Source: Deltaproteobacteria bacterium (GTDB lineage Bacteria; Desulfobacterota; Binatia; UBA9968). From it: a stretch of DNA of 62,547 nt. The position numbers were made by a program, and so were the translations under genes. The stretch is taken from contig JAUYJC010000602.1 in assembly GCA_030688735.1 (NCBI GenBank), forward strand, positions 1-62,547, written 5' to 3'. This document shows positions 5,148 through 45,911 of this stretch, in pieces (positions within the stretch are counted from its first letter, which is position 1; each line of letters begins with the position of its first letter). The notes under the pieces were generated by a model, which searched no databases, had not been told where the DNA came from, and saw only the letters and a list, made by a program, of their open reading frames with translations.

Positions 5148-6512
5148 ATGGATCTCACCAATCTTCATTCACTCTCAGCATCTGACGCGGCGCAGTTGAT
5201 CCGCGAAAGCGTGATCAGCTCCCAGCAACTCGTTGAAGCGTGCTTGGCGCGGATACGTGAAATCGACGGACAGGTGCAGGCGTGGGCTCACCTCGATCCC
5301 GATCATGCGCTCGTGCAGGCGCGCGCGTCTGACGAGTATCGCCTTACTGGCAAACCGACCGGGCCGCTCCACGGCGTGCCCGTCGGCATCAAGGATATTT
5401 TCGACACCGCCGACATGCCCACCGAAGACGGTTCCGTGCTCCACGCCGGGCGCACACCGTCGCGCGACGCGGCGGTGGTTTCAAGGCTGCGCGCGGCGGG
5501 CGCGGTGATCATGGGCAAGACCGTGACCACGGAGTTTGCTTACTTCGCGCCGGGGAAGACGCGCAACCCGCATAATCCCGAGCACACTCCTGGCGGCTCC
5601 TCCAGCGGCTCGGCCGCGGCCGTGGCGGCCGAGATGGTACCGCTGGCCCTCGGCAGCCAGACCAACGGCTCGACGATCCGTCCAGCGGCTTACTGCGGCG
5701 TGATCGGCTACAAACCGACCCACGGCCTGATTTCGCGCCACGGCGCCTTCGCGCTGTCGCGCACCCTCGACCATGTCGGGCTGTTCGCGCGCACCATCGA
5801 TGATATCGCGCTGCTTGCCGAGCAGCTCGTCGGCTACGACGAATACGATCCCGATACACATCCGCGAGCGCGCATCCCGTTTATCGACGTCGCGGCGCAA
5901 GAACCACCCGTGCCGCCCATGTTCGCATTCATAAAGACGCCGATGTGGGAGCGGGCCGATGACGATACGAAAGAGGGATTTGCGGAGATCGTCGAGCAAA
6001 TGGGAAGCCAGGTCGAAGAGGTGGAGCTGTTCCCCTCCGCAACCCTTCGACTTAGCTCAGGGCAGGCCGAAGCATGGCAGTGGCACCAGACGATAATGGC
6101 GGCGGAGATGGCAGCGAACCTAGAGCGGGAGTGGGAAAAAGGCCGCGACCGATTGTCCGAGAAATTGCGCGAGCAGATCGAACGCGGCCGCGAAGTGCGC
6201 GCGGTGGACTACCAGCGCGCGCTTCGTCATATTACGCCGATCCACGAGAGCCTGCTGGAGCTTTTCGAGCAGCGCTATGACGCAATTCTCACTCCGGCCG
6301 CTCCGGGCGCCGCGCCCAAAGGTCTTGCATCGACCGGAGACCCTTCCTTCTGCACGCTGTGGACGCTCTGCGGCATGCCCTGTATCAGTTTACCGTTCCT
6401 GCAAAGCACTAACGGTCTGCCCATCGGCGTTCAGCTAGTCGGCCCGCGCCACGTCGACGCGCGCCTCCTGCGCACCGCCCGCTGGTTGGCGGCGAAGATG
6501 GCGGAAAGCTGA
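5148..6512 (+). CDS. Amidase (amidase signature family, GatA-like)
   Basis: GVPVGIKDIFDTADMPTEDGS and GGSSSGSAAAVAAEMVPLALGSQTNGSTIRPAAYCGVIGYKPTHG signature. Confidence 0.93.
   Translation: MDLTNLHSLSASDAAQLIRESVISSQQLVEACLARIREIDGQVQAWAHLDPDHALVQARASDEYRLTGKPTGPLHGVPVGIKDIFDTADMPTEDGSVLHAGRTPSRDAAVVSRLRAAGAVIMGKTVTTEFAYFAPGKTRNPHNPEHTPGGSSSGSAAAVAAEMVPLALGSQTNGSTIRPAAYCGVIGYKPTHGLISRHGAFALSRTLDHVGLFARTIDDIALLAEQLVGYDEYDPDTHPRARIPFIDVAAQEPPVPPMFAFIKTPMWERADDDTKEGFAEIVEQMGSQVEEVELFPSATLRLSSGQAEAWQWHQTIMAAEMAANLEREWEKGRDRLSEKLREQIERGREVRAVDYQRALRHITPIHESLLELFEQRYDAILTPAAPGAAPKGLASTGDPSFCTLWTLCGMPCISLPFLQSTNGLPIGVQLVGPRHVDARLLRTARWLAAKMAES
6043..6066 (+). repeat. 24-nt dispersed element CCCTTCGACTTAGCTCAGGGCAGG inside the amidase CDS
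   Basis: 23/24 identical to the reverse complement of 55459-55482; encodes LRLSSGQA in frame. Confidence 0.85.
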
Positions 6513-6522
6513 AACGCAAAAA

Positions 6523-6584
6523 ATCGAGGATGGAAGATCGAGGATCGAAAAACGCCATCCTCCATCGTCGATCGTCGATCCTCG
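6523..6584. repeat. GATCGAGGAT-type reiterated imperfect palindrome between convergent genes
   Basis: atcgaggatggaagatcgaggatcga ... catcctccatcgtcgatcgtcgatcctcg; about 20 of 24 stem positions pair. Confidence 0.8.
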
Positions 6585-12281: not shown

Positions 12282-12328
12282 GCTAACTAATATTCACCTA
12301 CCATGTCAAGCGGGGGGTTCCGTTCCGA

Positions 12329-12394
12329 AGATAGAGGATGGAAGATCGAGGATCGAAGAATTCTCTCCTCCATCATCGATCCTCTATCCTCGAG
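12329..12394. repeat. GATCGAGGAT-type reiterated palindrome immediately 3' of lipA
   Basis: agatagaggatggaagatcgaggatcgaagaa/ttctctcctccatcatcgatcctctatcctcgag. Confidence 0.8.
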
Positions 12395-13250: not shown

Positions 13251-13964
13251 TCAAGCAGGCCGAGGATCGATGATCGAAGATTGAGGATCGCGATCTTCCA
13301 TCCTCGATCCTCCATTCTCGGCGATGCCGCCTTCCTTGAGGTCTGAATAACCGAACAGTTCAGCGAAGTGATGGAGAAATCTCCCCTTAACACGCTCTGC
13401 GCTTTGCTCTTTGCCCAATTCCCGCGCCATCGACGTTACCTCGGCCCACGCTAGCCCGCACGGGACGATTCGATCGAAGTAGCTGAGATCGGTGTTCACG
13501 TTGAGCGCCAGGCCGTGATAAGTGATGCACCGGCGCACCGCGACGCCGATGGCGGTGATCTTCCGATCACCGATCCAAATCCCGGTAAACGGCGGCCGGC
13601 GGGCAGCTTCGAGAGCGAAATCTCCAAGCGTGCGAATCGCGCTCATTTCCAGATTCCGCAGATACCGATGCACGTCCTTGCGCAGCTTAGAGCGTAAATC
13701 AATGATCGGATAGATAACCAACTGACCCGGACCGTGATAAGTCACGTCACCGCCCCGGCTCGTCCGGTAAACCGGAACTTCCTCTGGAGCGAGAACATTG
13801 GACTCATTACCACCGCGTCCGAGGGTGCAAACATGGGGATGTTCCACGAAGAGTAGGATGTCGGGTGATGGCTCGCGCTGCTTGAGTTCGACGAGCCTCT
13901 CTTGCAGCGCCAGTGCGGCAAGATAGTCCATTCTCCCGAGATCTTTGTAAAGTAGCGTAGTCAT
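13251..13964 (-). CDS. lipB: Octanoyltransferase
   Basis: FVEHPHVCTLGRGG, YRTSRGGDVTYHGPGQLVIYPIIDLR, TGIWIGDRKITAIGVAVRRCITYHGLALNVNTDL. Confidence 0.97.
   Translation of the reverse strand: MTTLLYKDLGRMDYLAALALQERLVELKQREPSPDILLFVEHPHVCTLGRGGNESNVLAPEEVPVYRTSRGGDVTYHGPGQLVIYPIIDLRSKLRKDVHRYLRNLEMSAIRTLGDFALEAARRPPFTGIWIGDRKITAIGVAVRRCITYHGLALNVNTDLSYFDRIVPCGLAWAEVTSMARELGKEQSAERVKGRFLHHFAELFGYSDLKEGGIAENGGSRMEDRDPQSSIIDPRPA
13261..13320. repeat. GATCGAGGAT-type 60-bp palindrome inside the 3' end of lipB
   Basis: cgaggatcgatgatcgaagattgaggatcg/cgatcttccatcctcgatcctccattctcg; 24 of 30 positions pair, no loop. Confidence 0.82.
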
Positions 13965-20984: not shown

Positions 20985-22865
20985 ATGGCTGTTTCGACCG
21001 GAATCAATAGGCAAGACGGCGCGCCCAAAGTGCGTGAGCGCGTTCGGTGGCTTTATGTGCTTGTGGTCCTCGCCTTCCTGGCGCTGATCACCCGGCTGGC
21101 ATTTTTGCAAATCTTCCAAGGCGAGCGCTTCACCTTTCTGTCGGAAAACAATCGCATCCGACTCAAAAGGATCGCCGGCACCCGCGGCATGATCTTCGAT
21201 CGCCAGGGGCAACTGCTGGTCGACAGCCGGCCTTCCTTCGATCTCATTTTCACCCCCGAGGACGCGGAGGACGCCACCGGCACGCTAAGTCAGCTGGCGC
21301 GATACCTAGGGCGCGACGAAAAAGAGTTGCTCGCCATCTTCGAGGCGAACAAGGAACGGCTCGCCTTCGAGGAGCTCACTTTGGGAAAGGACGTCGATTG
21401 GCCTACCGTCGTTGCGGTCGAAACCCATCAACTCGACTTGCCCGGCATCACGCTGCGCACGCGGCCGCGTCGCAACTACGCCGAAGGACCCAAGGGCGCA
21501 CATATCCTCGGTTATTTGGGTGAGATCGGACCGGAAGATTTAAAGGAACTAAAAAAGCAAGGCTACGCGTCGGGAGACGAGATGGGCCAGTACGGGTTGG
21601 AGCGCAGATGGGAAAACTTCCTGCGCGGTCAAAGCGGCGGGCAGCAGGTCGAGGTGGACGCGCTGGGACGGCGCATGCGCGTGCTCCACGAAGTGCCCGA
21701 CGTGCCTGGATACACCGTGCACCTGACGCTCGACCGCGAGCTTCAAGAAACCACCTTCGCTGCGCTGCAAGGGAAAGAAGGAACCGTCGTGGCGCTCGAC
21801 GTCAATTCCGGCGCGGTCCTAGCGATGGTCAGCACGCCCGCATTCGATCCCAACGTCTTCGCCCGCGGCGTGAAAGCCGAAGAGTGGCGCGCGCTGATCA
21901 AGGATCAATTGCGGCCGCTGAACAATCGCGCAACCCAGGGTCAATACCCTCCGGGTTCGACCTTCAAGATCATCATGGCCATCGCCGGCTTGGAAGAAGG
22001 AGTGCTCCAGCCGGAGAGCCAGATTTCCGATCCTGGTTTCTACTTTTTTGGCAACCGCCAATTCCGGGACTGGAAAAAAGGGGGGCACGGCGCTGTCGAT
22101 CTGCACAGGGCGATCGTCGAGTCTTGCGACGTTTACTTTTATCAATTGGGGACACGCCTCGGCATCGACAAGATTGCCAAGTGGGCGCGCGCCTTCGGCT
22201 TGGGAGAAAAGACCGGCATCGCGCTGGACGACGAAAAGAGCGGCCTCGTGCCGGACACCGAATGGAAAAGGAAAAGATTTCGCCAACCCTGGTTTCCGGG
22301 GGAAACGGTTTCGATTGCCATCGGCCAGGGTTACCTTACCGTGACGCCTCTGCAAATGGCCAACATGACCGCGGCCGTGGCGAACGGCGGAACCCTTTAT
22401 CGTCCCTGGATCGTGCGCAAAGTGGAGTCGGTGACCGGAGCAGTCATCCGCCAATACGGGCCGGAAAAGATTCGCAGCATCGCAATCAAGCCGGAAACCT
22501 TGGAGCGGCTGCACAACGGCCTCGCCGACGTAGTCAAACTTCCATCCGGCACCGGCGGCGCGGCGCGCACCAATATCGTCGCCATCGCCGGCAAGACGGG
22601 CACGGCTCAAGTCGTCGAGATGAAGGGCGCCTATCTCAAGAGCGAGCAACTCAGTTACTTTAACCGCGACCATGCCTGGTTTGTTTCCTACGCGCCGGTG
22701 GAGAATCCGCAGATCGCCGTCGCCGTCCTGGTCGAGCACGGCGGGCACGGCGGTTCCGCCGCCGCGCCGATAGCGAAAAAAGTGATCGAGAAATTCATCG
22801 AGCAACAGAACCGGCCCGCCGACCAAAACCAGGTGCGCGCCGAAGGGAACTCCCGTGCAAATTGA
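20985..22865 (+). CDS. mrdA: Penicillin-binding protein 2
   Basis: RGMIFDRQGQLLVDSRPSFDL; QGQYPPGSTFKIIMAIAGL (SxxK), AGKTGTAQVVEMK (KTG). Confidence 0.96.
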   Translation: MAVSTGINRQDGAPKVRERVRWLYVLVVLAFLALITRLAFLQIFQGERFTFLSENNRIRLKRIAGTRGMIFDRQGQLLVDSRPSFDLIFTPEDAEDATGTLSQLARYLGRDEKELLAIFEANKERLAFEELTLGKDVDWPTVVAVETHQLDLPGITLRTRPRRNYAEGPKGAHILGYLGEIGPEDLKELKKQGYASGDEMGQYGLERRWENFLRGQSGGQQVEVDALGRRMRVLHEVPDVPGYTVHLTLDRELQETTFAALQGKEGTVVALDVNSGAVLAMVSTPAFDPNVFARGVKAEEWRALIKDQLRPLNNRATQGQYPPGSTFKIIMAIAGLEEGVLQPESQISDPGFYFFGNRQFRDWKKGGHGAVDLHRAIVESCDVYFYQLGTRLGIDKIAKWARAFGLGEKTGIALDDEKSGLVPDTEWKRKRFRQPWFPGETVSIAIGQGYLTVTPLQMANMTAAVANGGTLYRPWIVRKVESVTGAVIRQYGPEKIRSIAIKPETLERLHNGLADVVKLPSGTGGAARTNIVAIAGKTGTAQVVEMKGAYLKSEQLSYFNRDHAWFVSYAPVENPQIAVAVLVEHGGHGGSAAAPIAKKVIEKFIEQQNRPADQNQVRAEGNSRAN

Positions 22866-23958
22866 CCGGCGCCTTATCTCCCATTTCGATTGGACGCTGT
22901 TCCTGCTCGCCCTTGCCTTTGTGTTGATCGGCGTCACGACGATTTACAGCGCCAACTACGACATCATCCAGAAGCACGCCGGGGCTTTACCGGGACGCCA
23001 ACTCATGTGGTTGGGATTCGGGCTGATCGCGTTGTTTGCCGCTCTCACTTTTGACTACCACTATATCGACCGGCTTGCTTATCCCTTCTACGGCGCGATG
23101 TTTCTACTGTTGGTAGCGGTGCTTTTCCTCGGCCATTCCGGCGGCGGCTCGCAGCGCTGGATCAATCTCGGCCTTTTTAGATTGCAGCCGTCCGAGCCGG
23201 CGAAAATCGCCATCGTCTTAGTGATGGCGAAATATTTCCAGGATGACGAGCCTCAGCGGGGCTATTATTTGCGGGATCTCTGGGCGCCTTTCGCGCTGGC
23301 GGCGCCGCTGGTGCTGCTCACACTGGTGCAGCCGGACCTCGGCACCGCCATCATCCTGGGCGTCGTCTTCATTAGCATGATACTCATGGGCGGTCTGCGC
23401 ACCCGCTCTTTTCTTTACTTGGTCGGCGCGGGTTTGGCATTTCTCCCGGTCGCCTGGCATTTCTTGAAAACCTACCAGCGCAACCGCATCCTGACTTTTC
23501 TCGACCCCGATCGCGATCCGCTCGGGGCCGGTTACCATGTGATTCAATCGCAGATCGCCGTCGGCTCCGGCAAGCTTTTCGGCAAAGGCTACCTGCACGG
23601 CACGCAAAACCGGCTCGACTTCCTGCCGGCCCAGCATACCGATTTTATCTTCGCGGTTTTTTCCGAGGAATGGGGTTTTGTCGGATGCTTGGTTTTGCTG
23701 CTGCTCTATTTCGCGCTGCTCGTCTACTGCCTGGGACTCGTCCAGCGGGCGAAGGACCGCTTCGGCGCCCTGTTGGTGTTCGGCATGACCGCGATCTTTT
23801 TCTGGCATGTGACGATCAACGTAGCGATGGTTGTGGGACTCATGCCGGTCGTCGGTGTGCCGCTGCCGATGGTCAGCTACGGCGGCTCGGCGCTTGCCAC
23901 CATGATGTTCGCCATCGGCGTCATCATGAACGTCAGCATGCGCCGGTTTATCTTCTGA
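22855..23958 (+). CDS. rodA: Rod shape-determining protein RodA (SEDS family)
   Basis: GGGSQRWINLGLFRLQPSEPAKIAIVLVMAKYF; C-terminal LMPVVGVPLPMVSYGGSALATMMFAIGVIMNVSMRRFIF. Confidence 0.97.
   Translation: MQIDRRLISHFDWTLFLLALAFVLIGVTTIYSANYDIIQKHAGALPGRQLMWLGFGLIALFAALTFDYHYIDRLAYPFYGAMFLLLVAVLFLGHSGGGSQRWINLGLFRLQPSEPAKIAIVLVMAKYFQDDEPQRGYYLRDLWAPFALAAPLVLLTLVQPDLGTAIILGVVFISMILMGGLRTRSFLYLVGAGLAFLPVAWHFLKTYQRNRILTFLDPDRDPLGAGYHVIQSQIAVGSGKLFGKGYLHGTQNRLDFLPAQHTDFIFAVFSEEWGFVGCLVLLLLYFALLVYCLGLVQRAKDRFGALLVFGMTAIFFWHVTINVAMVVGLMPVVGVPLPMVSYGGSALATMMFAIGVIMNVSMRRFIF
23835..23955 (+). repeat. Direct repeat, copy 1 (rodA 3' end)
   Basis: 121 bp, 8 mismatches to 29788-29908 by eye. Confidence 0.95.
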
Positions 23959-24120
23959 TCTTTTTCCGTTCCAAGTTCATTTTCAGCAGCGCTAAGTTGC
24001 GTGAAAAAGACCCCAGTCAAAGTTCACTGTCAGGGTCCGCTTTCCGGTAGCGTGGCAGTGGTTTCGAACGCACATTCTGCGGTGCCTAAAACTCGCAACG
24101 GGTTCCATCTAAAGGGTATG

Positions 24121-24711
24121 TTATTTCTGGGCGGCGGGATTGGCCTTGGCCGCATCGGGAGCCGCGTGGCCGCCCTGTTGCGGCAGGCCAGAAGCGTCGT
24201 CTTGCCTCGCTTCTACGACGTCTTGGATTGCCTCGAGAATCTGAACGTAGGCCCCGCAGCGGCAGATATTCCCGTTGAGATAGCGGCCAATCTGCTCCCT
24301 CGTCGGCTCAGAATACGCCTGCAGGAGTGCCTTGCAGGCCAGTAGCATCCCCGAGGTGCAGAAGCCGCACTGGGCTGCGCCGCGTCGGATGAAGGCCTCT
24401 TGGAGGGGATCCAGACCGTCTACTGGCGCCAGACCCTCGATCGTCGTCACACGCTTCCCCGATGCCTCGAAGGCCAGGTAGGTGCAGGAGCTGATCGGCT
24501 CTTCGTCAACCAGGACAGTGCAGGCCCCGCAGACTTGGGACTCGCACGAGCGTTTCGTCCCGGTGAGACGGAGCCGCTCGCGCACAAACTCCAGCAGAGT
24601 CTCTTCGGCGCGGACTTCGCCCTTCCACGGCCGGCCGTTGATCTGGAGGGCAACCGGCATCGTGTGCGACGTTTGTGGCATCGCGGACCCAGTGTGCAAG
24701 GCGTCGGCCAT
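24121..24711 (-). CDS. Molybdenum hydroxylase small (2Fe-2S) subunit, CoxS/XdhC-like
   Basis: CESQVCGACTVLVDEEPISSCTYLA and CGFCTSGMLLACKALL...GNICRCGAYVQI. Confidence 0.95.
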   Translation of the reverse strand: MADALHTGSAMPQTSHTMPVALQINGRPWKGEVRAEETLLEFVRERLRLTGTKRSCESQVCGACTVLVDEEPISSCTYLAFEASGKRVTTIEGLAPVDGLDPLQEAFIRRGAAQCGFCTSGMLLACKALLQAYSEPTREQIGRYLNGNICRCGAYVQILEAIQDVVEARQDDASGLPQQGGHAAPDAAKANPAAQK

Positions 24712-24712
24712 C

Positions 24713-25579
24713 TCAATTGCTCCCGTTGGTGCCCACGGCCTGAGCGAGCGCTCGGCCCAAGAGCACCCCGGTCAGGTACGTCTTGTACGCCACTGATCCA
24801 TGCAGGTCGTCCACGGGCTTTAAGACCTCTCCGTAATGGCGCTGTGCCTCGCGCAAGATCTGCTGGCCATCGGCGAGTGTCGCGCCTTGCAGGCGCGACT
24901 CGAGTTCCTGTAGCCGCATGGGCACCGGGCCAACGCAGCTCACGGCCAGCCGCACGTCGGTGAGGCGTCCGTCGTGCTGGGCCGCCGCCACTGCCACACC
25001 CAGGGAGGGGCGCTCAAAACGCGCCGCGCGCAGGTAGGCGCTACCCATGCCTGGTGGCAGCGGCGCCACCTCCAGCTCGACCAAAAGCTCATCGGGCTCC
25101 AGCGCGGTCTCATAGGGTCCCATGAAAAACGTCTCGAGGCCCATCGTACGGCCGCCGCTGTGCTTGCCGATCTTGACCCTGGTGTCATAGACCAGCAGGA
25201 CTGGGGCAGGATCCGAATGCGGGTCGCCGAAGCAGAGACTCCCGCCAAGCGTGCCGACGTTACGCACGCGCACGTTTGCTACTAGTCCGGTAGCATGTTG
25301 CAGCAACGGCAGGTGCTCGGCCACCTCTGCCGACCTCTCCAGATGGCGATGGGTGACCGTGCCACCGATGTGCATCCTCTCGCCATCCCATGCCAGCTCG
25401 CCCAGTTCGGGGATTCTTTTGATATCCACCAGGTGGGTGTATTGGACGAGTCCCAGTCGCAGCCACAGGATGAGTTCAGTCCCCCCCGCATAGACCTTGG
25501 CGTCGTCTCCGAGACGGGCGAGTTCGGCAGACGCTTCGGTCACATTCGTGGGCTGGTACACGCGCAACGGCCTGAGCAT
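24713..25579 (-). CDS. Molybdenum hydroxylase FAD-binding medium subunit, CoxM-like
   Basis: MLRPLRVYQPTNVTEASAELARLGDDAKVYAGGTELILWLR; VRNVGTLGGSLCFGDPHSD. Confidence 0.93.
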   Translation of the reverse strand: MLRPLRVYQPTNVTEASAELARLGDDAKVYAGGTELILWLRLGLVQYTHLVDIKRIPELGELAWDGERMHIGGTVTHRHLERSAEVAEHLPLLQHATGLVANVRVRNVGTLGGSLCFGDPHSDPAPVLLVYDTRVKIGKHSGGRTMGLETFFMGPYETALEPDELLVELEVAPLPPGMGSAYLRAARFERPSLGVAVAAAQHDGRLTDVRLAVSCVGPVPMRLQELESRLQGATLADGQQILREAQRHYGEVLKPVDDLHGSVAYKTYLTGVLLGRALAQAVGTNGSN

Positions 25580-25593
25580 TTTGCCTCTCTTTG

Positions 25594-27876
25594 TTATGCA
25601 AGCTTCCCCAGGCCGCGCAGTAGCTTCTCCGGCGTGATGGGGAGTTCCTTGATGCGCACGCCCACCGCGTCAAAGACGGCATTGGCGATGGCTGGCGCTA
25701 TGGGACTCACGGAAGTCTGGGACATGCCCTTGGCGCCCAAGGGGCCAGGGCCATCGTGGTTTTCCACCATGATAGACGTGAAGCGCTGCGGGAGGTCATG
25801 GACGAGGGGCAGGCGGTACTGGAAGCTGTCGCCATTCAGGAGCTGGCCGTCGCCGTAGATCATCTCCTCGTACATCGCATCGCCCAAACCCATCACGCCG
25901 CCACCGTCGAGCTGGCTCTTACAAGCAACCGGGTGGACGGCCGTTCCCACGTCGGCCGCAATGGCGTATTGCAACAGGGTCACGTCGCCTGTCTGCGGGT
26001 CGACCTCCACCTCCGCCGCGCCGACACTGAGTTCCCAATGGGGGACAACGCCTTGCCACACGTTATCGGCGCGTGGTGTGCTGTAATGGCCTTTGCCTCT
26101 GACGACCAGGCTATGCGCAAGCGCGCTGATGACCCTGCCGACAGGATAAGGCCGTTCACCGTGCCACAACTGACCTGCCGCGTACTGCCACTCCTCGGGC
26201 GTCCCGCCGACGGCCTTGGCGGCGACCTCCAGGAGCTGCCGCTTGAGATCCTCGCAGGCCCGCTGGGCGGCCATCCCCATGGACACTGTGTCTCTGGAAC
26301 TCCCGATGCCGTCCGAGTAGGGCAAATCTGTGTGCGGGTGGGTCACCTCTATCTGGCTCTCGGGGACGCCCAGTGTCTCCACGGCAACGCGGGCCAGCAT
26401 GGTATAGAGACCCTGTCCAATCTCGGCCCCCGAGTGGAGGATACGGATGATGCCGCGGTTGTCCGCCGTGACCTCCACGTCGGAGACGCTGGCGCCGGAG
26501 TAGCCATGGCGCAAGGTTGCCGCGATCCCCCGACCGCGCACCGGGGTGGTGCCGGTATAGACGATATCGGCGGGCGGCCCAACGCGTTGTGAGCGGCCGT
26601 TCCAATTCAAGGCCGTGAGAGCACGACGGACGAGATCGTCCATATCCGTATCGAAGGGACCAACCGTCTCGATGAGACGCTCGCCACGGTGTAAGAAGTT
26701 GTGCCGGCGAAACGCCACCGGGTCCATCCCCAGCTTGCGGGCGATGGTATCGTAGTGGGACTCGTAGCCCCAGGTGGTCTGTGCTCTGCCGAGACTGCGA
26801 AAGGCGCCAGCCGGGACTTTGTTGGTGTAGTAGGAGCGACCGACGATCCGGAGATGGGGCACTCGGTACGGCCCCCACGCCAGCGAGGAGCCCCGTCGCG
26901 GCACGTTCATGGCGTTTCCCTGGGCATAGGCGCCCTTATCGAAGATGAGATCAATGTCCTGGGCCATAAGTGTGCCGTCGGCCTTGACACCGGTCTTGAC
27001 ATGGTACACGACGGCATGACGGCAGTCGCTGCGAAAGCTTTCCTCGGCGCTCGGCCTCAAGGTGACGGCACGCCCCGAACGGATGGCGAGGAAGATCGCG
27101 ATCAGGTGCTCGGTCTTAAGCTCCTTGGAGCCGAACCCGCCGCCCACGTAAGGAAACCCCACGCGCACCTTGTTGCGATCAAAGCCGAACATCGCCGCGA
27201 TGTCATCGCGGGAGCGGAAGGGGTGCTGAATCGGTGCGGTGAGTTCCAGCGTATCCCCGCGCACCTCGGCGATACAGCCCCCAAGATTCTCCATAGGGTA
27301 GTGGAAGACACTCTGAAACACGTAGGTGTCTTCGAGAATATGATCGGACTCGCGCCAACCCTGCTCGACATCACCCCAGCCGAAGTCGAACCGGCCCACC
27401 AGGTTGCCGGGACGCTTGTTGTGAATCACCGGCGCTTCAGGTTTGAGCGCCTCGCGAACGTCGAAGAGCATGGGGAGGCTTTCATAGGCCACCTCGATAC
27501 AGTCTAAGGCCTGCCGGGCAAGTGACGGGGTCTCTGCAGCCACAGCAGCAACGGGCTCTCCTTCATAGCGCACCTTCTCCAATGCGACTAAAGGAGCAGC
27601 CCCCTCACCCTCCGCGCCATAGGATGCCGGGTCCAGGAAAGGATTGAGGTTCCCGAGGTGCTCACGCGTGACCACGGCGTGCACACCTGGCAGCCGCTCG
27701 GCCTGCCGGGCATCGATGGAAACAAGACGTGCGTGGGCATAGGGAGAACGCAAAATAGCGCCGAAGAGAGTCCCCAGTGGTAAGGGCAGGTCCTCCGTGT
27801 AGACGGCCTGCCCCGTAACTTTCGGCAGCGCGTCAATACGCGGTGTCTGTACGGTAACGGTTCCCACGTCTTTCAT
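25594..27876 (-). CDS. Molybdenum hydroxylase large (molybdopterin) subunit, CoxL/aldehyde oxidase-like
   Basis: TGQAVYTEDLPLPLGTLFGAILRSPYAHARL; PYVGGGFGSKELKTEH; AGAFRSLGRAQ; PLGAKGMSQTSVSPIAPAIANAVFDAVGVRIKELPITPEKLL. Confidence 0.94.
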   Translation of the reverse strand: MKDVGTVTVQTPRIDALPKVTGQAVYTEDLPLPLGTLFGAILRSPYAHARLVSIDARQAERLPGVHAVVTREHLGNLNPFLDPASYGAEGEGAAPLVALEKVRYEGEPVAAVAAETPSLARQALDCIEVAYESLPMLFDVREALKPEAPVIHNKRPGNLVGRFDFGWGDVEQGWRESDHILEDTYVFQSVFHYPMENLGGCIAEVRGDTLELTAPIQHPFRSRDDIAAMFGFDRNKVRVGFPYVGGGFGSKELKTEHLIAIFLAIRSGRAVTLRPSAEESFRSDCRHAVVYHVKTGVKADGTLMAQDIDLIFDKGAYAQGNAMNVPRRGSSLAWGPYRVPHLRIVGRSYYTNKVPAGAFRSLGRAQTTWGYESHYDTIARKLGMDPVAFRRHNFLHRGERLIETVGPFDTDMDDLVRRALTALNWNGRSQRVGPPADIVYTGTTPVRGRGIAATLRHGYSGASVSDVEVTADNRGIIRILHSGAEIGQGLYTMLARVAVETLGVPESQIEVTHPHTDLPYSDGIGSSRDTVSMGMAAQRACEDLKRQLLEVAAKAVGGTPEEWQYAAGQLWHGERPYPVGRVISALAHSLVVRGKGHYSTPRADNVWQGVVPHWELSVGAAEVEVDPQTGDVTLLQYAIAADVGTAVHPVACKSQLDGGGVMGLGDAMYEEMIYGDGQLLNGDSFQYRLPLVHDLPQRFTSIMVENHDGPGPLGAKGMSQTSVSPIAPAIANAVFDAVGVRIKELPITPEKLLRGLGKLA

Positions 27877-28383
27877 GGGGCTTACCTTTTAGTTTAAGTG
27901 CTTAACAAGAACCACTTCAAGAAAGTTTATCGCGCCGAGACGCCAAGAGCGCAAAGAAAAATCTTTTTATTTTTCCAAACTCGGCGTGCTTTAGTCTTCG
28001 CGCGAGTCATCTTTTTTTTCAGATTCCTTCAGCCATAAGCCAACTAAGAATTTCAAATATCTTTGCTTAGGCGTTCCTCCCGGGAACGAGCGTCGCTAAC
28101 GTCGCAGAAGATCATCATGTCGCTCCTCAGGCGGGTTGGTTGTACCCCATTTTTTCCTCCGCGTCCACTTGCACCGCTGCAGCCGGTCAGGCGGGTTTGG
28201 CCAGCTTGGAAGCTGCCTTCAGACACGGTATCGCTACGGGCAGCCGGTCTGGTTATTAACAAGATTGACTCCGACGAACAGATTCTGATAAGCCAGTCGC
28301 TGGGGACTGACGAGCTTTACCCGTCGTGTCGGGTTGACAGGGAAGGCAACAGTCAAGACATCCAGGAGCAGAGGGGAACGACG

Positions 28384-29373
28384 ATGATTAAGTCCATATT
28401 GCGCGGGTTGACATTTCTAGCGGTCCTGTTTCCAACTTTTGGCGGCTATCTCTTGGCTGCCCAAATGTATGCGGTCTGGACCAGCGAGGCGGGAGTTTAC
28501 GCTCCCGTGTGGGTTACGAAAGAGGCCGGGTTTTTTGAAAAATATGGAAACCAGGTGCAGCTCATATTTATCCAGGGCGCGACCTCTGCGGCGGCGGCTT
28601 TGATTTCCGGAGACGCCCACATCGCCTACATGTCGCCCCAGGTGGCGATTACGAGCACCCTGAAGGGGCTTGATCTCGTCATGCTTGCCCGGATGGGGAA
28701 CTTCATTGAAAATCAGATCTTTGGCAGAAAGGGTATAACCAGCCTGAAACAGATCAAGAGCCTGGCCGTCAGCCGGTTCGGGAGCAGCGCCGATTTTGTC
28801 GGACGGGTTTTGGTCGAGCGCGAGGGACTTAAGCCCGACAGCGAAGTTGCCTTCTTGCAGTTTGGAAATCAGTCCAGCCGGCTGGCAGCCATAGAAACAG
28901 GCAGGGCCGATGCCGCAATTTTGACTCCTCCAATAACCTTGCAGGCGAGAAAAATGGGCTTCCCGCTCCTCGCGGATGGCATGAAGCTACAGATTCCCTA
29001 CTCCAGCAACATGATGGTGGTCCGCCGCTCCTATCTGGATAAGAATCGAGAGGCGGTCCGCAATGCCTTGAAAGCGCTGATCGAGGGGGTGCATTCCTTC
29101 AAGGCCAATAAAGAGCACACCATCAAGGTGATCTCTAAATACTTGAAGATTCAGGACCGCGAGGTTGCTGAAGAAAATATTCGCGGCTACGACTTTCCTT
29201 TGAAGCCTTATCCCGCAAAGGAATACTTTGATCTTCCTATCCAGGAAGTCGCCAAAAGAGAACCCAGAGTTTTAAAAGAAAACCCCGCGCGTTTTGCCGA
29301 TTCCTCTCTGGTCAAAGAGTTGGATGAGAGCGGATTCATAGATAAATTGACTAGAGATTACGGTCTAAAATAG
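28384..29373 (+). CDS. NMT1/THI5-like ABC solute-binding protein (orphan)
   Basis: MIKSILRGLTFLAVLFPTFGGYLLAAQMYAVWTSEAGVYAPVWVTKEAGFFEKYGNQVQLIFIQGATSAAAALISGDAHIAY. Confidence 0.88.
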   Translation: MIKSILRGLTFLAVLFPTFGGYLLAAQMYAVWTSEAGVYAPVWVTKEAGFFEKYGNQVQLIFIQGATSAAAALISGDAHIAYMSPQVAITSTLKGLDLVMLARMGNFIENQIFGRKGITSLKQIKSLAVSRFGSSADFVGRVLVEREGLKPDSEVAFLQFGNQSSRLAAIETGRADAAILTPPITLQARKMGFPLLADGMKLQIPYSSNMMVVRRSYLDKNREAVRNALKALIEGVHSFKANKEHTIKVISKYLKIQDREVAEENIRGYDFPLKPYPAKEYFDLPIQEVAKREPRVLKENPARFADSSLVKELDESGFIDKLTRDYGLK

Positions 29374-29787
29374 AGAAACCACTGATGATGTCTGATTCGC
29401 GGAAGGGAATTTTTGGCATACCTCGCCGGGATCCTTCAAAAAGACAAAAGCCCGATTCCTTTTTTTCAGACGAACGAATCCATCTGATAGGGAATCGGGC
29501 TCCCATCCTCAATCCGGTTCGCCTGTGCGTGCCCGCACGCAGTCAAGCCAATGTTCGGGCAGATCTTTTACCGACGTACATGATGATGTTGCTCAATCCT
29601 CAAGAAGGGAACCCGACACGAATTTTTTTGAGCGGTTTGCTTTGCGAGAAGCCGGATGGGACAAAAGGGGCCGGGGTCAGGCGGGATATTTGCTATTTCT
29701 AAACTTCGGACTTCGAACTTCGGGGCCAGGTTTTGCAATCCCTAGAGGCGCGCCATGGCCCGTCCTCTACGACCGGAGTTTGGTGGC

Positions 29788-29908
29788 GGGACTCATGCCG
29801 GTCGTCGGTGTGCCGCTGCCGATGGTCAGTTATGGCGGGTCGGCGCTCGCTTCCATGATGTTCGCCATCGGCGTGATCATGAACGTCAGCATGCGCCGGT
29901 TTATCTTT
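29788..29908 (+). repeat. Direct repeat, copy 2: detached rodA 3'-end fragment
   Basis: Encodes GLMPVVGVPLPMVSYGGSALASMMFAIGVIMNVSMRRFIF then TAG; no rodA body upstream. Confidence 0.95.
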
Positions 29909-29951: not shown

Positions 29952-30278
29952 CTATTGCAGGGCTTTTTCGATGGCGCTCACCAACTTCGCTTTCGGGACC
30001 GCGCCGACGATCTGCTCCTTCACCGCACCGCCCTTTAGGATGATCAGATTAGGGATACCGCGGATGCCGTAGCGAGAAGCGGTGGCGGGATGGTCGTCGA
30101 CGTTGAGCTTCGCCACTTTCAATTTGCCTTCGTATTCGCCGGCCAGTTCTTCCACAATCGGCGCGATGGATTTGCACGGGCCGCACCAGGGAGCCCAAAA
30201 ATCGACCAGCACCGGCAGCGCCGACTGAATGACTTCAGTTTCAAAATTGTTGTCGCCTACCTCGGTAATCTTTCCCAT
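29952..30278 (-). CDS. trxA: Thioredoxin
   Basis: VLVDFWAPWCGPCKSIAPIVEELA; YGIRGIPNLIILKGG. Confidence 0.97.
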   Translation of the reverse strand: MGKITEVGDNNFETEVIQSALPVLVDFWAPWCGPCKSIAPIVEELAGEYEGKLKVAKLNVDDHPATASRYGIRGIPNLIILKGGAVKEQIVGAVPKAKLVSAIEKALQ

Positions 30279-30383: not shown

Positions 30384-31862
30384 CTAGAGCGTTGACAAAA
30401 ATCGCAGCACCGTGCGAACCCCGAACCCGGTGCCGCCTTTGTTGCACAGGGCTGTGTCGGTTTCCGCGAACGCCGGGCCGGCGATATCCAAATGCGCCCA
30501 GGGAACATCGCCGACGAACTCTTGCAGGATAAGCGCGGCGGTGATCGCGCCGCCATGCGACCCGCCGATGTTTTTCATATCGGCCACGCTGCTCTTGATC
30601 AGTTCACGATATTCTTTGACCAGCGGCAGTTGCCAGAGCTTTTCACCGGTGTCCCGCGCGCAGCGCAACAGCTGGTCGGCTAGCGGCTGGTTATTGCTGA
30701 ACAGCCCGCCGACTTCGCTGCCGAGCGCCACCATGCAGGCGCCCGTCAGGGTCGCCAGGTTGACCATGGTGTCGGGCTTTTGTTGCGCCGCTAGCGCCAA
30801 TGCGTCGGCCAGGATCAAGCGGCCCTCGGCGTCGGTGTTCAGAACTTCGATGGTCTTCCCGTTCAAATAGCGAATGACATCGCCCGGCTTTTGCGCGTTG
30901 GCGCCGGGAAGATTATCCGTCGTCGGAATGTAACCGGTGACCTCGATATCGAGGCCCAGGTGCGGCAGCCGGCTCATGGCGCCGATCACCGCCGCGCCGC
31001 CGGACATGTCGAGTTTCATCGTTTCCATGGACTTCGACGGCTTCAGGGAAAGCCCACCGGAGTCGAAGGTGATCCCTTTGCCGATCAACGCGATTCTTTT
31101 GCGCGGCTTGCCTGAGGGCCGGTAATGGATCTTGATGAAGCGCGGCTCTTCCTGACTGCCGCGATTGACCGCCAACAGCCCGTTGAGTTTCATCGCCGCA
31201 ATCTTCTGTTTGCCCCAGACTTCGACGGTCAAACCGCGACCGCGGCAATGGCGCCGCGCCTGTTCTCCGAGGAACCGGGCGGTGGTCACCGAGGGTGGCT
31301 CATTGATCAGATCGCGGGCGAGATAAACGCCCGGCAGCGTGCGCTGCACGATCGCAATCGATTTGTCCATCGCCGCGCTGCGGCTCAACCCCGGTCGGAA
31401 GAACGTCAGTTGTCTTACCGCATCGGAAGGTTTGGAGTTCGACCGGTATTTGTTGAATTGATAGGAAGCGAGTAGCATTCCTTCGACGATGGCGGCCGCC
31501 GCCTGCTCCGGACTCTCGGCCGGCGCGAAGAACAACGCGATGTCGGCGGCGCCGACACCCGCCGCTTCCCGCCGCGCCCGCGCCCCCGCTTTGCGCCAAA
31601 CATCCGGCTCGACGTCTTTCGCGCTGCCCATGCCGAGCAACAGTAAATGAGACGATGGCAGCAGGCCGGAGGCCGGGTAAAGCAAGGCGCTTCCCTCGGC
31701 GCCGGTGAACTTGCTCTTTTGGATGCGTTCGGAAAGTTTTCCCCGCAAACGCCGGTCGAGCGCGCGTAGCGGCACCTCTTCGAGCTTTTTCTCCAGGACC
31801 GGCAAGACCAGCAGGTCGGCCTTGACGGTTTCAACACGTGCATCTCTGAATCGGGTTTCCAC
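30384..31862 (-). CDS. pepA: Leucyl aminopeptidase (M17)
   Basis: LIGKGITFDSGGLSLKP, NTDAEGRLILADAL. Confidence 0.97.
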   Translation of the reverse strand: METRFRDARVETVKADLLVLPVLEKKLEEVPLRALDRRLRGKLSERIQKSKFTGAEGSALLYPASGLLPSSHLLLLGMGSAKDVEPDVWRKAGARARREAAGVGAADIALFFAPAESPEQAAAAIVEGMLLASYQFNKYRSNSKPSDAVRQLTFFRPGLSRSAAMDKSIAIVQRTLPGVYLARDLINEPPSVTTARFLGEQARRHCRGRGLTVEVWGKQKIAAMKLNGLLAVNRGSQEEPRFIKIHYRPSGKPRKRIALIGKGITFDSGGLSLKPSKSMETMKLDMSGGAAVIGAMSRLPHLGLDIEVTGYIPTTDNLPGANAQKPGDVIRYLNGKTIEVLNTDAEGRLILADALALAAQQKPDTMVNLATLTGACMVALGSEVGGLFSNNQPLADQLLRCARDTGEKLWQLPLVKEYRELIKSSVADMKNIGGSHGGAITAALILQEFVGDVPWAHLDIAGPAFAETDTALCNKGGTGFGVRTVLRFLSTL

Positions 31863-42606: not shown

Positions 42607-42680
42607 GGGCTTCCATGGGAGAGTTTGAGAGATAGCACCCCACACCACTTCCGGATCGTTCAGGGCAGTCAAGTGATAGG

Positions 42681-42754
42681 ATGGATCGAAAGTAATCACT
42701 TTTATTTCTTTGCTGGGAGGCTGGCTTTCAGGAGGGGCCTGAGATTCTTCCCAT
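42681..42754 (+). repeat. Repeat module C, copy 0 (truncated unit)
   Basis: gatcgaaagtaatcacttttatttctttgctgggaggctggctttcaggaggggcctgagattcttcccat, matching 43738-43813. Confidence 0.75.
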
Positions 42755-42787
42755 CCCCTTATTTTTGATCCCGCGCCGGCGACCGAT

Positions 42788-43174
42788 TTACCATTTCAGA
42801 GCACGCGCCTTTTTGATGTGCGCCTGGTAGTAGCTCATTCCGATGTTACGGACGCGCACAACTCTACCCATCCGCTGCACCTGCGAGCGAAAGGCCCTGC
42901 ACCGCAAGAAGCGGCGGATGAACTCGGCAGCTTCGTCAAAAGCGACGTCAAGATACACCAGGCAGTATCCCCGGTGGCACAGGTCGGCTTTGTAAAAATC
43001 GTGATCGCGGGTGAAGAAGGTTTGGCGGCGCAAAGTGTGTAAGAGCGGAATAATCTCACCGCGGTCTTTCATTCCCGCTCGTCCGAGATCTCCGCCAATA
43101 CTTCGAAAACGAACCTTCCACGATCGGAGTAGTAGGCGTTGCGTAGCGACGATGTTCTCATCAAGGATATTCAC
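42788..43174 (-). CDS. DUF5615-like (PIN-like) putative toxin
   Basis: GTG start: (M)NILDENIVATQRLLLRSWKVRFRSIGGDLGRAGMKDRGEIIPLLHTLRRQTFFTRDHDFYKADLCHRGYCLVYLDVAFDEAAEFIRRFL; overlaps antitoxin stop (GTGA). Confidence 0.75.
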   Translation of the reverse strand: MNILDENIVATQRLLLRSWKVRFRSIGGDLGRAGMKDRGEIIPLLHTLRRQTFFTRDHDFYKADLCHRGYCLVYLDVAFDEAAEFIRRFLRCRAFRSQVQRMGRVVRVRNIGMSYYQAHIKKARALKW

Positions 43175-43425
43175 GCCGCGCGCCGTGGCTTGTCGCTCTT
43201 TTCGGTTAGAGCCTTTGAAGCTAAAGCGATCGCTTCGGCGATAGCCGCGTGACTCAGGCGGCCATCGAATTCGGTAGAGATGCGATCCCAATTGTAGCCT
43301 TTGGCGAGCATCGCCAGAACATCTTTGACAAAGATGCGTGTGCCTTTGAACGTCAACTGCCCACCACAAATCTCGGGGTCAGCAACTACATACCGTCCGA
43401 GTTCTTTGCGTTTACGTGCTTTCAT
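43171..43425 (-). CDS. DUF433-family putative antitoxin
   Basis: RYVVADPEICGGQLTFKGTRIFVKDVLAMLAKGYNWDRISTEFDGRLSHAAIAEAIALA. Confidence 0.85.
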   Translation of the reverse strand: MKARKRKELGRYVVADPEICGGQLTFKGTRIFVKDVLAMLAKGYNWDRISTEFDGRLSHAAIAEAIALASKALTEKSDKPRRAA

Positions 43426-43490
43426 AGCGTGCTCCGGGTCTGTCCGATGTATCGAATCTTCGCATACTCTATTGGGCTAGGCAAATCGAG

Positions 43491-43813
43491 AGTGATGGCA
43501 ATTTGCTCTGAAATTCCGCCACCGAGGACTCAAAAAATTCCGCCAACAATGGCGCGCCAACTCGACTTTAAGAGACCAAAGGAGCGGCCGGAAAGAGCGA
43601 ACCGGCCTCGGACCCCCTATCTCGGGCAAAACACTATCCAATGAGAGTGTCTTATCTCAACTTCATCCCGATTTGCGGGTAGGGCTCGACAACTGCCCCC
43701 CGATTGCGGTATGAGGCTTTTGAAATACCTGGCTGTTGGACAGATCGAAGGTAATCTCTTTTATTTCTTTTCTGGCAGGCTCGCATTGAGGCGGGGCCTG
43801 GGATTGTTCCCAT
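43491..43813 (+). repeat. Composite repeat unit A-B-C, copy 1
   Basis: A 43491-43640 matches 45499-45647; B 43635-43732 matches 45814-45911; C 43738-43813 matches 42681-42754. Confidence 0.85.
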
Positions 43814-43910
43814 AGAGACAGGTGTTAAAGATTCTTTTTAATTTAATCTCTCGGGGTCAATTCCCCGCAGCTGGCTGCGCTTGGGATTCTCCGAGTCTTT
43901 TGGATTTTGA

Positions 43911-43934
43911 TACCCCGCAGCTTGCTGCGGGGTA
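43911..43934. repeat. Perfect palindrome TACCCCGCAGC-TT-GCTGCGGGGTA with a degenerate copy near 43860-43888
   Basis: Read directly; partial copy attccccgcagctggctgcgcttgggatt. Confidence 0.85.
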
Positions 43935-44013
43935 GTTCATTGACATCTTTATCTTGTCCACAAAAGTACTACTTGACAGGAAAGATATAGGAGGTCCCGT
44001 TTCTAACTCCGCG

Positions 44014-45213
44014 TCAGAAGGGAAAGTCTCTCAAGTCCCATTTCATGGCGCGCTGCTCCTCGCGATAGGACCGGAGTATCGCCTTTAGCGTTTCAAGCCC
44101 ATCCTTGGACTGGAGGTCACGAATGCTCGCTTCCATGCTGGCGTTGACCTCGTCCATTGCGCGGGCTTCGGCGGGCCCGTTGGTCCGTATAGTGGCACCG
44201 AACGGCCCGTCGATAACGGCGATGGGCTGGTATCGCGGCTGGTACGGGAGTTCGTGAAGTTCCCGTTCTAGGTCTTGAACCTGTTCTTTCAGCGTCTGAT
44301 TGTAGATGGCCAGTTTCTCGTCCGTCAGACGTTCGATGTCGCCTTCTTCACGCTGAATCCATGCCATCTCAAGCCGAAGCAACGTGTGCATGTCGTTGTT
44401 GCGGTAGGCAACGGTGAGTTCCTGCATGAGGACTTCTTTTTGCCCCCTGCGCGCGGCATCGAGTTCCAGATCGGGATGCAGGACCTTGGCAAGCTGCTTG
44501 TAGACTCTCGCAATCGTCTTTTTACGGAGTTCCTCGGCCTGTCTCTCGCGTTCTTCCTTTTCCATCTGGCGTTGAGTCTTGCGGCGCGGCTGGCTGGACG
44601 ACTGCCATTTTTCTTCGCTCTGCCGGAAACGATTCGCCATTTCGGCGGCCTTGGCGGCCATGGTCTCCTCGCTCATTCCGGGCTTGATGTCTGAAAGGTC
44701 GATCTCGATGCCAAGATCGCTAAACACCGTTTCGATTTGCTGGCGCGCCTTCTCGATCTCCTCGCGTTCAAACTCCTCGAAGCCGCGTCCGTGGACGCGC
44801 TCAAACAGCGCCCGAAGGTCACCGTCCGATAATGAGCCCTCCTCGGAAAAGATTCCTTTCAGCTGGTTTGCGATGACCTGGCGCAGCGTTGAACGCGCGC
44901 TTTTCGCCTTCACTCGCTTATCGTCCAGGAAGGCCGCGAGCGCCCGCGCGAGTTCCTTACGCAATTCCGTTTGACGCCGCAGTCGCGGATGAAGGTGTTC
45001 GCCGTAATAGGCAAGAGCATCGTCGAACAGCCGGGTCTCGCGCTCGATTTTCAACCGGAGCGTTTCGATCCTTGCGACCAGACGATTGAAAGTCTGCTGG
45101 GCCTTCGTCAGCGGCCGGCTGTGCCGCGAAACTAACGTTAGGCCCGCGGCCTCTGGTTCCTGGCGCCCCACGCTGTCCTCGAATAACGAAATCTGTTCGC
45201 TCGCCATCGCCAT
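44014..45213 (-). CDS. Atypical J-domain-like protein, coiled-coil rich
   Basis: IARVYKQLAKVLHPDLELDAARRGQKEVLMQELTVAYRNNDMHTLLRLEMAW contains an HPD motif in J-domain-like context. Confidence 0.75.
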   Translation of the reverse strand: MAMASEQISLFEDSVGRQEPEAAGLTLVSRHSRPLTKAQQTFNRLVARIETLRLKIERETRLFDDALAYYGEHLHPRLRRQTELRKELARALAAFLDDKRVKAKSARSTLRQVIANQLKGIFSEEGSLSDGDLRALFERVHGRGFEEFEREEIEKARQQIETVFSDLGIEIDLSDIKPGMSEETMAAKAAEMANRFRQSEEKWQSSSQPRRKTQRQMEKEERERQAEELRKKTIARVYKQLAKVLHPDLELDAARRGQKEVLMQELTVAYRNNDMHTLLRLEMAWIQREEGDIERLTDEKLAIYNQTLKEQVQDLERELHELPYQPRYQPIAVIDGPFGATIRTNGPAEARAMDEVNASMEASIRDLQSKDGLETLKAILRSYREEQRAMKWDLRDFPF

Positions 45214-45498
45214 CTCCCATTCAGTTCAATCTGTTTGGATATCGTGCATCGCGCCGGGGCACAGGTGTGGTCGGGGAGTGTAAAGGGTTCCGCACACGAA
45301 ACATTCCTTCGCTGCGCTCAGCCAGTGTCAGTGGAGCGTATCTCATACCTAGGAATCAATAACCACGATTAGAACCCCGTGCTAATTAGGCCACATTTCG
45401 CGCGGCTCGAATTCAGCGCTAGTATAATTTGGCTCAGGACTACTTCTCTCTGAAATGAACCAAAAACGGGCCGCAGTGCCGAACACTGCCGACCACCA

Positions 45499-45911
45499 AG
45501 TGATAGGAATTTGCTTTGAAGTTCCGCCACCGAGGACTCAAAAAATTCCGCCAACAATGGCTCGCCAACTCGACTTTAAGAGCCCAAAGGCGCCGTCGGA
45601 AAGAGCGAACCGGCCTCGGACCCCTATCTCGAGCGAAACACTATCCAAAAGTATTTGAAATTCGGAAACGAAGAAGAGATCGGAAAAACCATGTTTCCCG
45701 CAAAGACGCGAAGTTCAGAGAATTGAAAAGACATTTTTAACTTTGCGCCTTGGCGCCTTGGCGGGATAAATTTTCCTGGAGTCGCTCTGTTCAACATTTC
45801 CTAGGTAAGTATCTATCCGATACGAGTGTCCTATGTCAACTTCACCCCGATTTGCGGGTAGGGCTGGGCACCTGCCCCCCGATTGCGGTATGAGGCTTTT
45901 AAAATTCTTGG
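45499..45911 (+). repeat. Composite repeat unit A-[166-bp insertion]-B, copy 2
   Basis: A 45499-45647, B 45814-45911; intervening CGCAAAGACGC/GGCGCCTTGGCG-type inverted repeat. Confidence 0.82.

Follow-up and report, generated by a model that had tools for sequence, protein, structure and literature searches.

How did the 3' end of rodA come to stand at both ends of a block of metabolic genes while rodA itself was left intact? The question is raised by a window of 62,547 nucleotides (the whole stretch of DNA analysed here, a contig from a Deltaproteobacteria bacterium) with one long direct repeat around the end of rodA. In a repeat search of the window, positions 23828-23954 and 29781-29907 matched over 127 bp with 93% identity. 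The features that bear on the question are as follows.

22855..23958, plus strand: rodA, intact, 367 aa, GTG start, TGA stop (Pfam FTSW_RODA_SPOVE, E 8e-103)
23828..23954, plus strand: repeat copy 1, the 3' end of the intact rodA, with V327 and T349
23959..29780, no strand: inserted cargo region of 5.8 kb, which relatives lack at this position
24121..24711, minus strand: MoCo hydroxylase small (2Fe-2S) subunit (Pfam Fer2, Fer2_2)
24713..25579, minus strand: MoCo hydroxylase medium (FAD) subunit (Pfam FAD_binding_5, CO_deh_flav_C)
25594..27876, minus strand: MoCo hydroxylase large subunit with Gln in place of the catalytic Glu (Pfam MoCoBD_1/2; 1rm6 alignment)
27893..28070, no strand: dispersed intergenic repeat (multiple 72-85% DNA matches in family genomes)
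28384..29373, plus strand: NMT1/SsuA-like periplasmic solute-binding protein (Pfam NMT1, E 1e-14)
29781..29907, plus strand: repeat copy 2, an orphan rodA 3' end that ends TTT TAG; displaced or remnant allele
29952..30278, minus strand: trxA, ancestral convergent neighbour of rodA (Pfam Thioredoxin; synteny)
30384..31862, minus strand: pepA, conserved next gene after trxA (synteny)

The repeat and the block it encloses

The earlier note on this DNA, made from the sequence alone, had described a 121-bp repeat (23835-23955 and 29788-29908) with 8 differences. The count is exact (identity 113/121), and so is its reading of the changes: seven are synonymous third-position differences and one is Thr/Ser (ACC/TCC at 23899/29852, first codon position). 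The repeat is thus real, but it starts 7 bp earlier than 23835 and takes in two more differences (23832 and 23834), the latter a Val/Ala change. It holds exact blocks of 42 bp, the longest, and 32 bp. Within the 6.76-Mb genome its E value of 1e-48 excludes a chance origin, and as a query against that genome it retrieved only its two copies and a weak match (64 bp, 75%) to an FtsW-type paralogue on contig C210, with no third RodA end. The stop codons are unlike, TGA in copy 1 and TAG in copy 2, and no rodA lies upstream of copy 2.

The window also has other repeats. Non-coding direct repeats of near 93% identity lie within 42679-45911 (43491-43616 / 45499-45624, 126 bp; 43634-43732 / 45813-45911; 42679-42754 / 43738-43813), where they bracket a 399-aa open reading frame with no Pfam match (44014-45213); single diverged copies occur on contigs C126 and C397. 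A palindrome-like 65-bp intergenic repeat beginning GAGGATGGAAGATCGAGGATCG occurs three times, at 6520-6584, 12328-12392 and 13256-13320.

Between the two rodA ends the gene content is as first described, only the small, medium and large subunit genes of a xanthine-dehydrogenase-family hydroxylase and an orphan solute-binding protein for which the insert holds no ABC partner genes. The hydroxylase genes are transcribed opposite to rodA and the solute-binding protein gene in the same direction. The best solved-structure match of the large subunit is 4-hydroxybenzoyl-CoA reductase alpha. Its scores fall far short of all curated NCBIfam cut-offs, and its nearest relative among 148 class genomes (E<=1e-200) is 61% identical. 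Neither a close donor of the cargo nor a donor with rodA and the same cargo was found in these 148 genomes, a collection so sparse that the miss says little; a donor with both would in any case be support for homologous capture, and is no strict requirement of it. GC content is 63.6% in the hydroxylase genes, 51.8% in the solute-binding protein gene and ~57% in the flanks, a contrast which suggests that the block may itself be composite in origin. The insert ends gave only trivial short matches when sought as dispersed repeats in the same genome. As also stated before, trxA comes after the second copy; it lies on the minus strand at 29952-30278, and pepA is the next gene. The earlier statement that the interval has no integrase gene agrees with Pfam on the named open reading frames, by which none was detected. 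No tRNA or tmRNA that could serve as an insertion target lies within the window.

Two further observations concern the cargo. The intergenic repeat at 27893-28070 has dozens of copies of 72-85% identity in family genomes, most of them in G002. The large subunit reads GAKGMSQTS, with Gln where 1rm6 (GAKEASEGM) has the catalytic Glu. Homologues inspected from other family genomes likewise carry Gln, and several of these genomes encode an adjoining paralogue with the normal Glu (GMGEGG). The Gln-bearing large subunits look like a conserved, perhaps catalytically altered subfamily.

Gene order in relatives and divergence between the tails

A RodA search covered 58 genomes: the window's own (G000), one congener (G001) and other members of the family, order and class. 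Where family relatives have rodA and trxA on the same contig, the two nearly always stand side by side and converge, with pepA next, and among resolved family members the gap is with few exceptions 6-217 bp (a printed gap of 486 bp in G024 reflects a split RodA match, the real gap being ~140 bp). The exceptions are G009, with a gap of 1.23 kb and a GT9-like glycosyltransferase gene recognized by reading rather than by profile, and G006, with a gap of 1.56 kb; in G018 a truncated contig starts after rodA, as in G006. None of these three has a rodA remnant before trxA. Since the empty site, rodA joined to trxA, is present in relatives, the 5.8 kb between rodA and the orphan tail is, judged from gene order, an insertion between normally adjacent genes. 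The comparison of rodA-trxA spacing that had been proposed thus bears out the earlier claim that DNA entered at the rodA 3' end.

Divergence between the tails was estimated by the NG86 method. The two copies differ by dS 0.32 and dN 0.02, copy 2 and the rodA end of G001 by dS 0.48 and dN 0, and the whole rodA genes of G000 and G001 by dS 0.38 and dN 0.03 (94% amino acid identity in RodA). Because the differences are almost only synonymous, the orphan tail appears to have been a working rodA end until recently, under constraint, and not a decayed tandem duplicate; on these values its divergence is about that between species within the genus. This agrees with the earlier view that the tails are different rodA alleles and no recent tandem copy. 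The odd one in the family alignment is copy 1, that of the working gene, which has Thr349 where almost all others have Ser, and Val327 against Ala in copy 2 and G001. At the 10 informative sites along the repeat (2222212111, 2 marking sites where copy 2 is like G001), copy 2 resembles G001 towards the 5' side and copy 1 towards the 3' side; this weak mosaic should be taken as a hint only (max-chi-square permutation p 0.047).

A second insert in the sister species

In the only congener, G001, ~6.1 kb lie between rodA and trxA. Its rodA contig (C127) stops 137 bp past the last rodA codon, and the last 84 bp of C127 dovetail with the first 84 bp of C77 at 93%. As the dovetail is not exact, it is very likely, rather than proven, that the two contigs adjoin. 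The cargo on C77 consists of signal-transduction genes flanked by an unknown open reading frame at either end; these genes encode a GAF-PAS histidine kinase, a response regulator, a sigma-54 response regulator and an adenylate/guanylate cyclase. At its far side, positions 6101-6115 of G001 L096 (CGGTATATCTTCTGA) match the last 15 bases of rodA from G012 exactly, whereas the longest match in 500 trials with shuffled spacers was 12 bp. Past this remnant come a spacer of ~100 bp, resembling the rodA-trxA spacers of G020 and G012, and then trxA. The spacer repeat ATGGAGTACTGGAGTG (G001 L096:6115-6210), located between the remnant and trxA, occurs dispersed in many family genomes; in G012, G020 and G023 it is native between rodA and trxA.

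The cargos of G000 and G001 share no DNA, and the DNA after copy 1 has no significant homology to that after G001 rodA (score 27; shuffles up to 38). Both genus members examined thus carry ~6 kb of different cargo and a scrap of rodA tail (127 or 15 bp) beside trxA, with joins at different positions. The remnant lengths and the unrelated insert ends come from two inserts only, and erosion of the G001 remnant is possible. On this comparison the rodA/trxA gap is a recurrent capture site for new genes. The unrelated insert of G001 at this site is new in this analysis.

Routes of entry at the rodA/trxA junction

We hypothesize that the block was captured horizontally through one-sided homologous anchoring in rodA and an illegitimate join at the far end, a reading to which we give a probability of roughly one in two. 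Incoming DNA from a relative would have had the cargo behind a rodA 3' end of its own. The rodA part would have paired with resident rodA and recombined normally, so that rodA kept a complete, slightly different donor end, while the non-homologous far end would have been joined illegitimately inside the resident tail, 127 bp before the stop codon. The resident tail would then stay as an untranslated scar beside trxA, in a gap that is probably tolerant since two genes converge there. A homologous anchor exists on one side (tails 93% identical, dS 0.32 between the supplied and the remnant allele), and the variable remnant lengths, the lack of shared insert ends and the failure to detect an integrase are as expected of an illegitimate join whose position varies. 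Joins of this kind typically use a few bp of microhomology, which here would be readable only against the donor's sequence. A parallel argument has been made for T6SS immunity arrays of V. cholerae, where the displaced effector 3' end is retained (PMC5361080). We observe an insertion, allele-level divergence of the tails and the same outcome with other cargo in a sister species, and infer the mode of pairing and joining, the assignment of the copies to donor and resident, and the recent date. Several points count against one-sided anchoring. In experiments, homology-facilitated illegitimate recombination occurs only rarely (PMC5361080); no genome was found to have the donor order, with the same cargo after rodA (nearest large subunit 61%, 148 class genomes); the weak mosaic (p 0.047) rather suggests a crossover within the repeat, of Campbell or site-specific type; and the genome is a draft of 634 contigs, analysed without reads.

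The earlier note had proposed a cassette entering as integrative elements do at the 3' ends of conserved genes. Insertion, different alleles and the failure to find an integrase stand; an element of the tRNA/icd type is less favoured, given that G001 has an unrelated insert and a 15-bp remnant against 127 bp here. In an account modelled on e14 in icd, attP would have brought a replacement rodA 3' end, copy 1 being the element's end and copy 2 attR, with the integrase gene later lost or acting in trans. The layout exactly matches attL/attR with an extended identity block, and for integrases whose target lies deep within a gene, e.g. icd, such blocks reach ~250 bp (PMC10111431). Moreover, the replacement end has diverged synonymously, the repeat contains 42-bp and 32-bp exact blocks, and the same site was used in G001. 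However, neither cargo contains an integrase, excisionase or other mobility gene by Pfam/NCBIfam; no integrase, transposase or phage gene was recognized in the named open reading frames of either, a scan that did not take in all very small ones. Such an element also predicts a constant crossover core, and the two remnants, 127 and 15 bp with insert ends that share nothing, show none (erosion in G001 could hide one). A single shared core gives no simple account of the two lengths; one-sided recombination with a random end does. RodA tails, sought in viral contigs as a sign of proviruses at the rodA site, had no match there. We consider an e14-like origin possible but unlikely. That small cargo islands in this Binatia-like family, mobilized in trans by an unrecognized recombinase, use the rodA 3' end as a true attachment site seems distinctly doubtful. 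In the titles and abstracts searched, there was no lead to a paper that names rodA as a target of integration.

Integration of a circular molecule with the cargo and a short piece of a relative's rodA 3' end, by a single Campbell-type crossover within the repeat, would leave reciprocal mosaic tails, and the informative sites follow each other as expected if it lay near 23900-23921. The mosaic has only 10 sites (p 0.047), though, the insert holds no replicon genes, and the 15-bp remnant of G001 would be left unexplained by this route alone, which makes it improbable. An assembly or strain-mixing artefact in a draft metagenome-derived genome of 634 contigs with 5.4% contamination also comes into question, and G001 breaks at this very spot, with the 84-bp, 93% dovetail between its contigs. 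Yet no k-mer by which a false join might arise is shared between the junction at 29780 and the sequence upstream in resident rodA, exact repeats do not exceed 42 bp, the flanks on both sides are equally far from G001 (~89-90%), and a separate genome has the same kind of structure; we hold an artefact to be very unlikely. Least probable is an ancestral tandem duplication of rodA in which both copies were long kept until cargo replaced most of the second. It would account for the signature of purifying selection in the orphan tail, but in the ancestral order one rodA stands next to trxA, and in none of the family genomes searched were two RodA genes present apart from the FtsW paralogue; nor did any of them carry the complete second rodA that the earlier note had set against its own reading.

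Returning to one-sided anchoring with an illegitimate far join, the structure is most likely a known kind of recombination scar, recurrent at one site. As in the T6SS scars of V. cholerae (PMC5361080), a new block is joined at a conserved gene with homology on one side, the old 3' end persists downstream as a remnant (in T6SS clusters, displaced effector 3' ends together with orphan immunity genes), and the process is repeated at one locus with different cargo and no integrase. Here, however, the anchor is a housekeeping gene whose product is functionally the same, metabolic or regulatory genes take the place of toxin-immunity cargo, and what remains of the old end is non-coding debris. The e14 and lambdoid prophages in icd (PMC10111431) similarly display a conserved gene's 3' end as near-synonymous alleles around an insert with the gene intact, but the present locus has no integrase or phage genes and its remnant length varies between two inserts. 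Also comparable is the microcin H47 island (PMC5426353), which is small, is flanked by short direct repeats and lacks a recombinase of its own. Its excision was shown by experiment, whereas the present case is known from sequence, and here the repeat is the 3' end of a gene (127 bp, 93% identity).

Should the attachment-site reading be true, a cell-elongation gene would be a new kind of integration target, with replacement ends borne by the element. The locus is a test case for housekeeping gene ends as homologous anchors versus integrase targets, and the two unrelated cargos in sister species make the rodA/trxA gap a place to look for recent gene gains. Its well-preserved scar shows how, in an uncultured lineage, blocks of genes are exchanged at a conserved junction of convergent genes with an essential cell-shape gene left intact.
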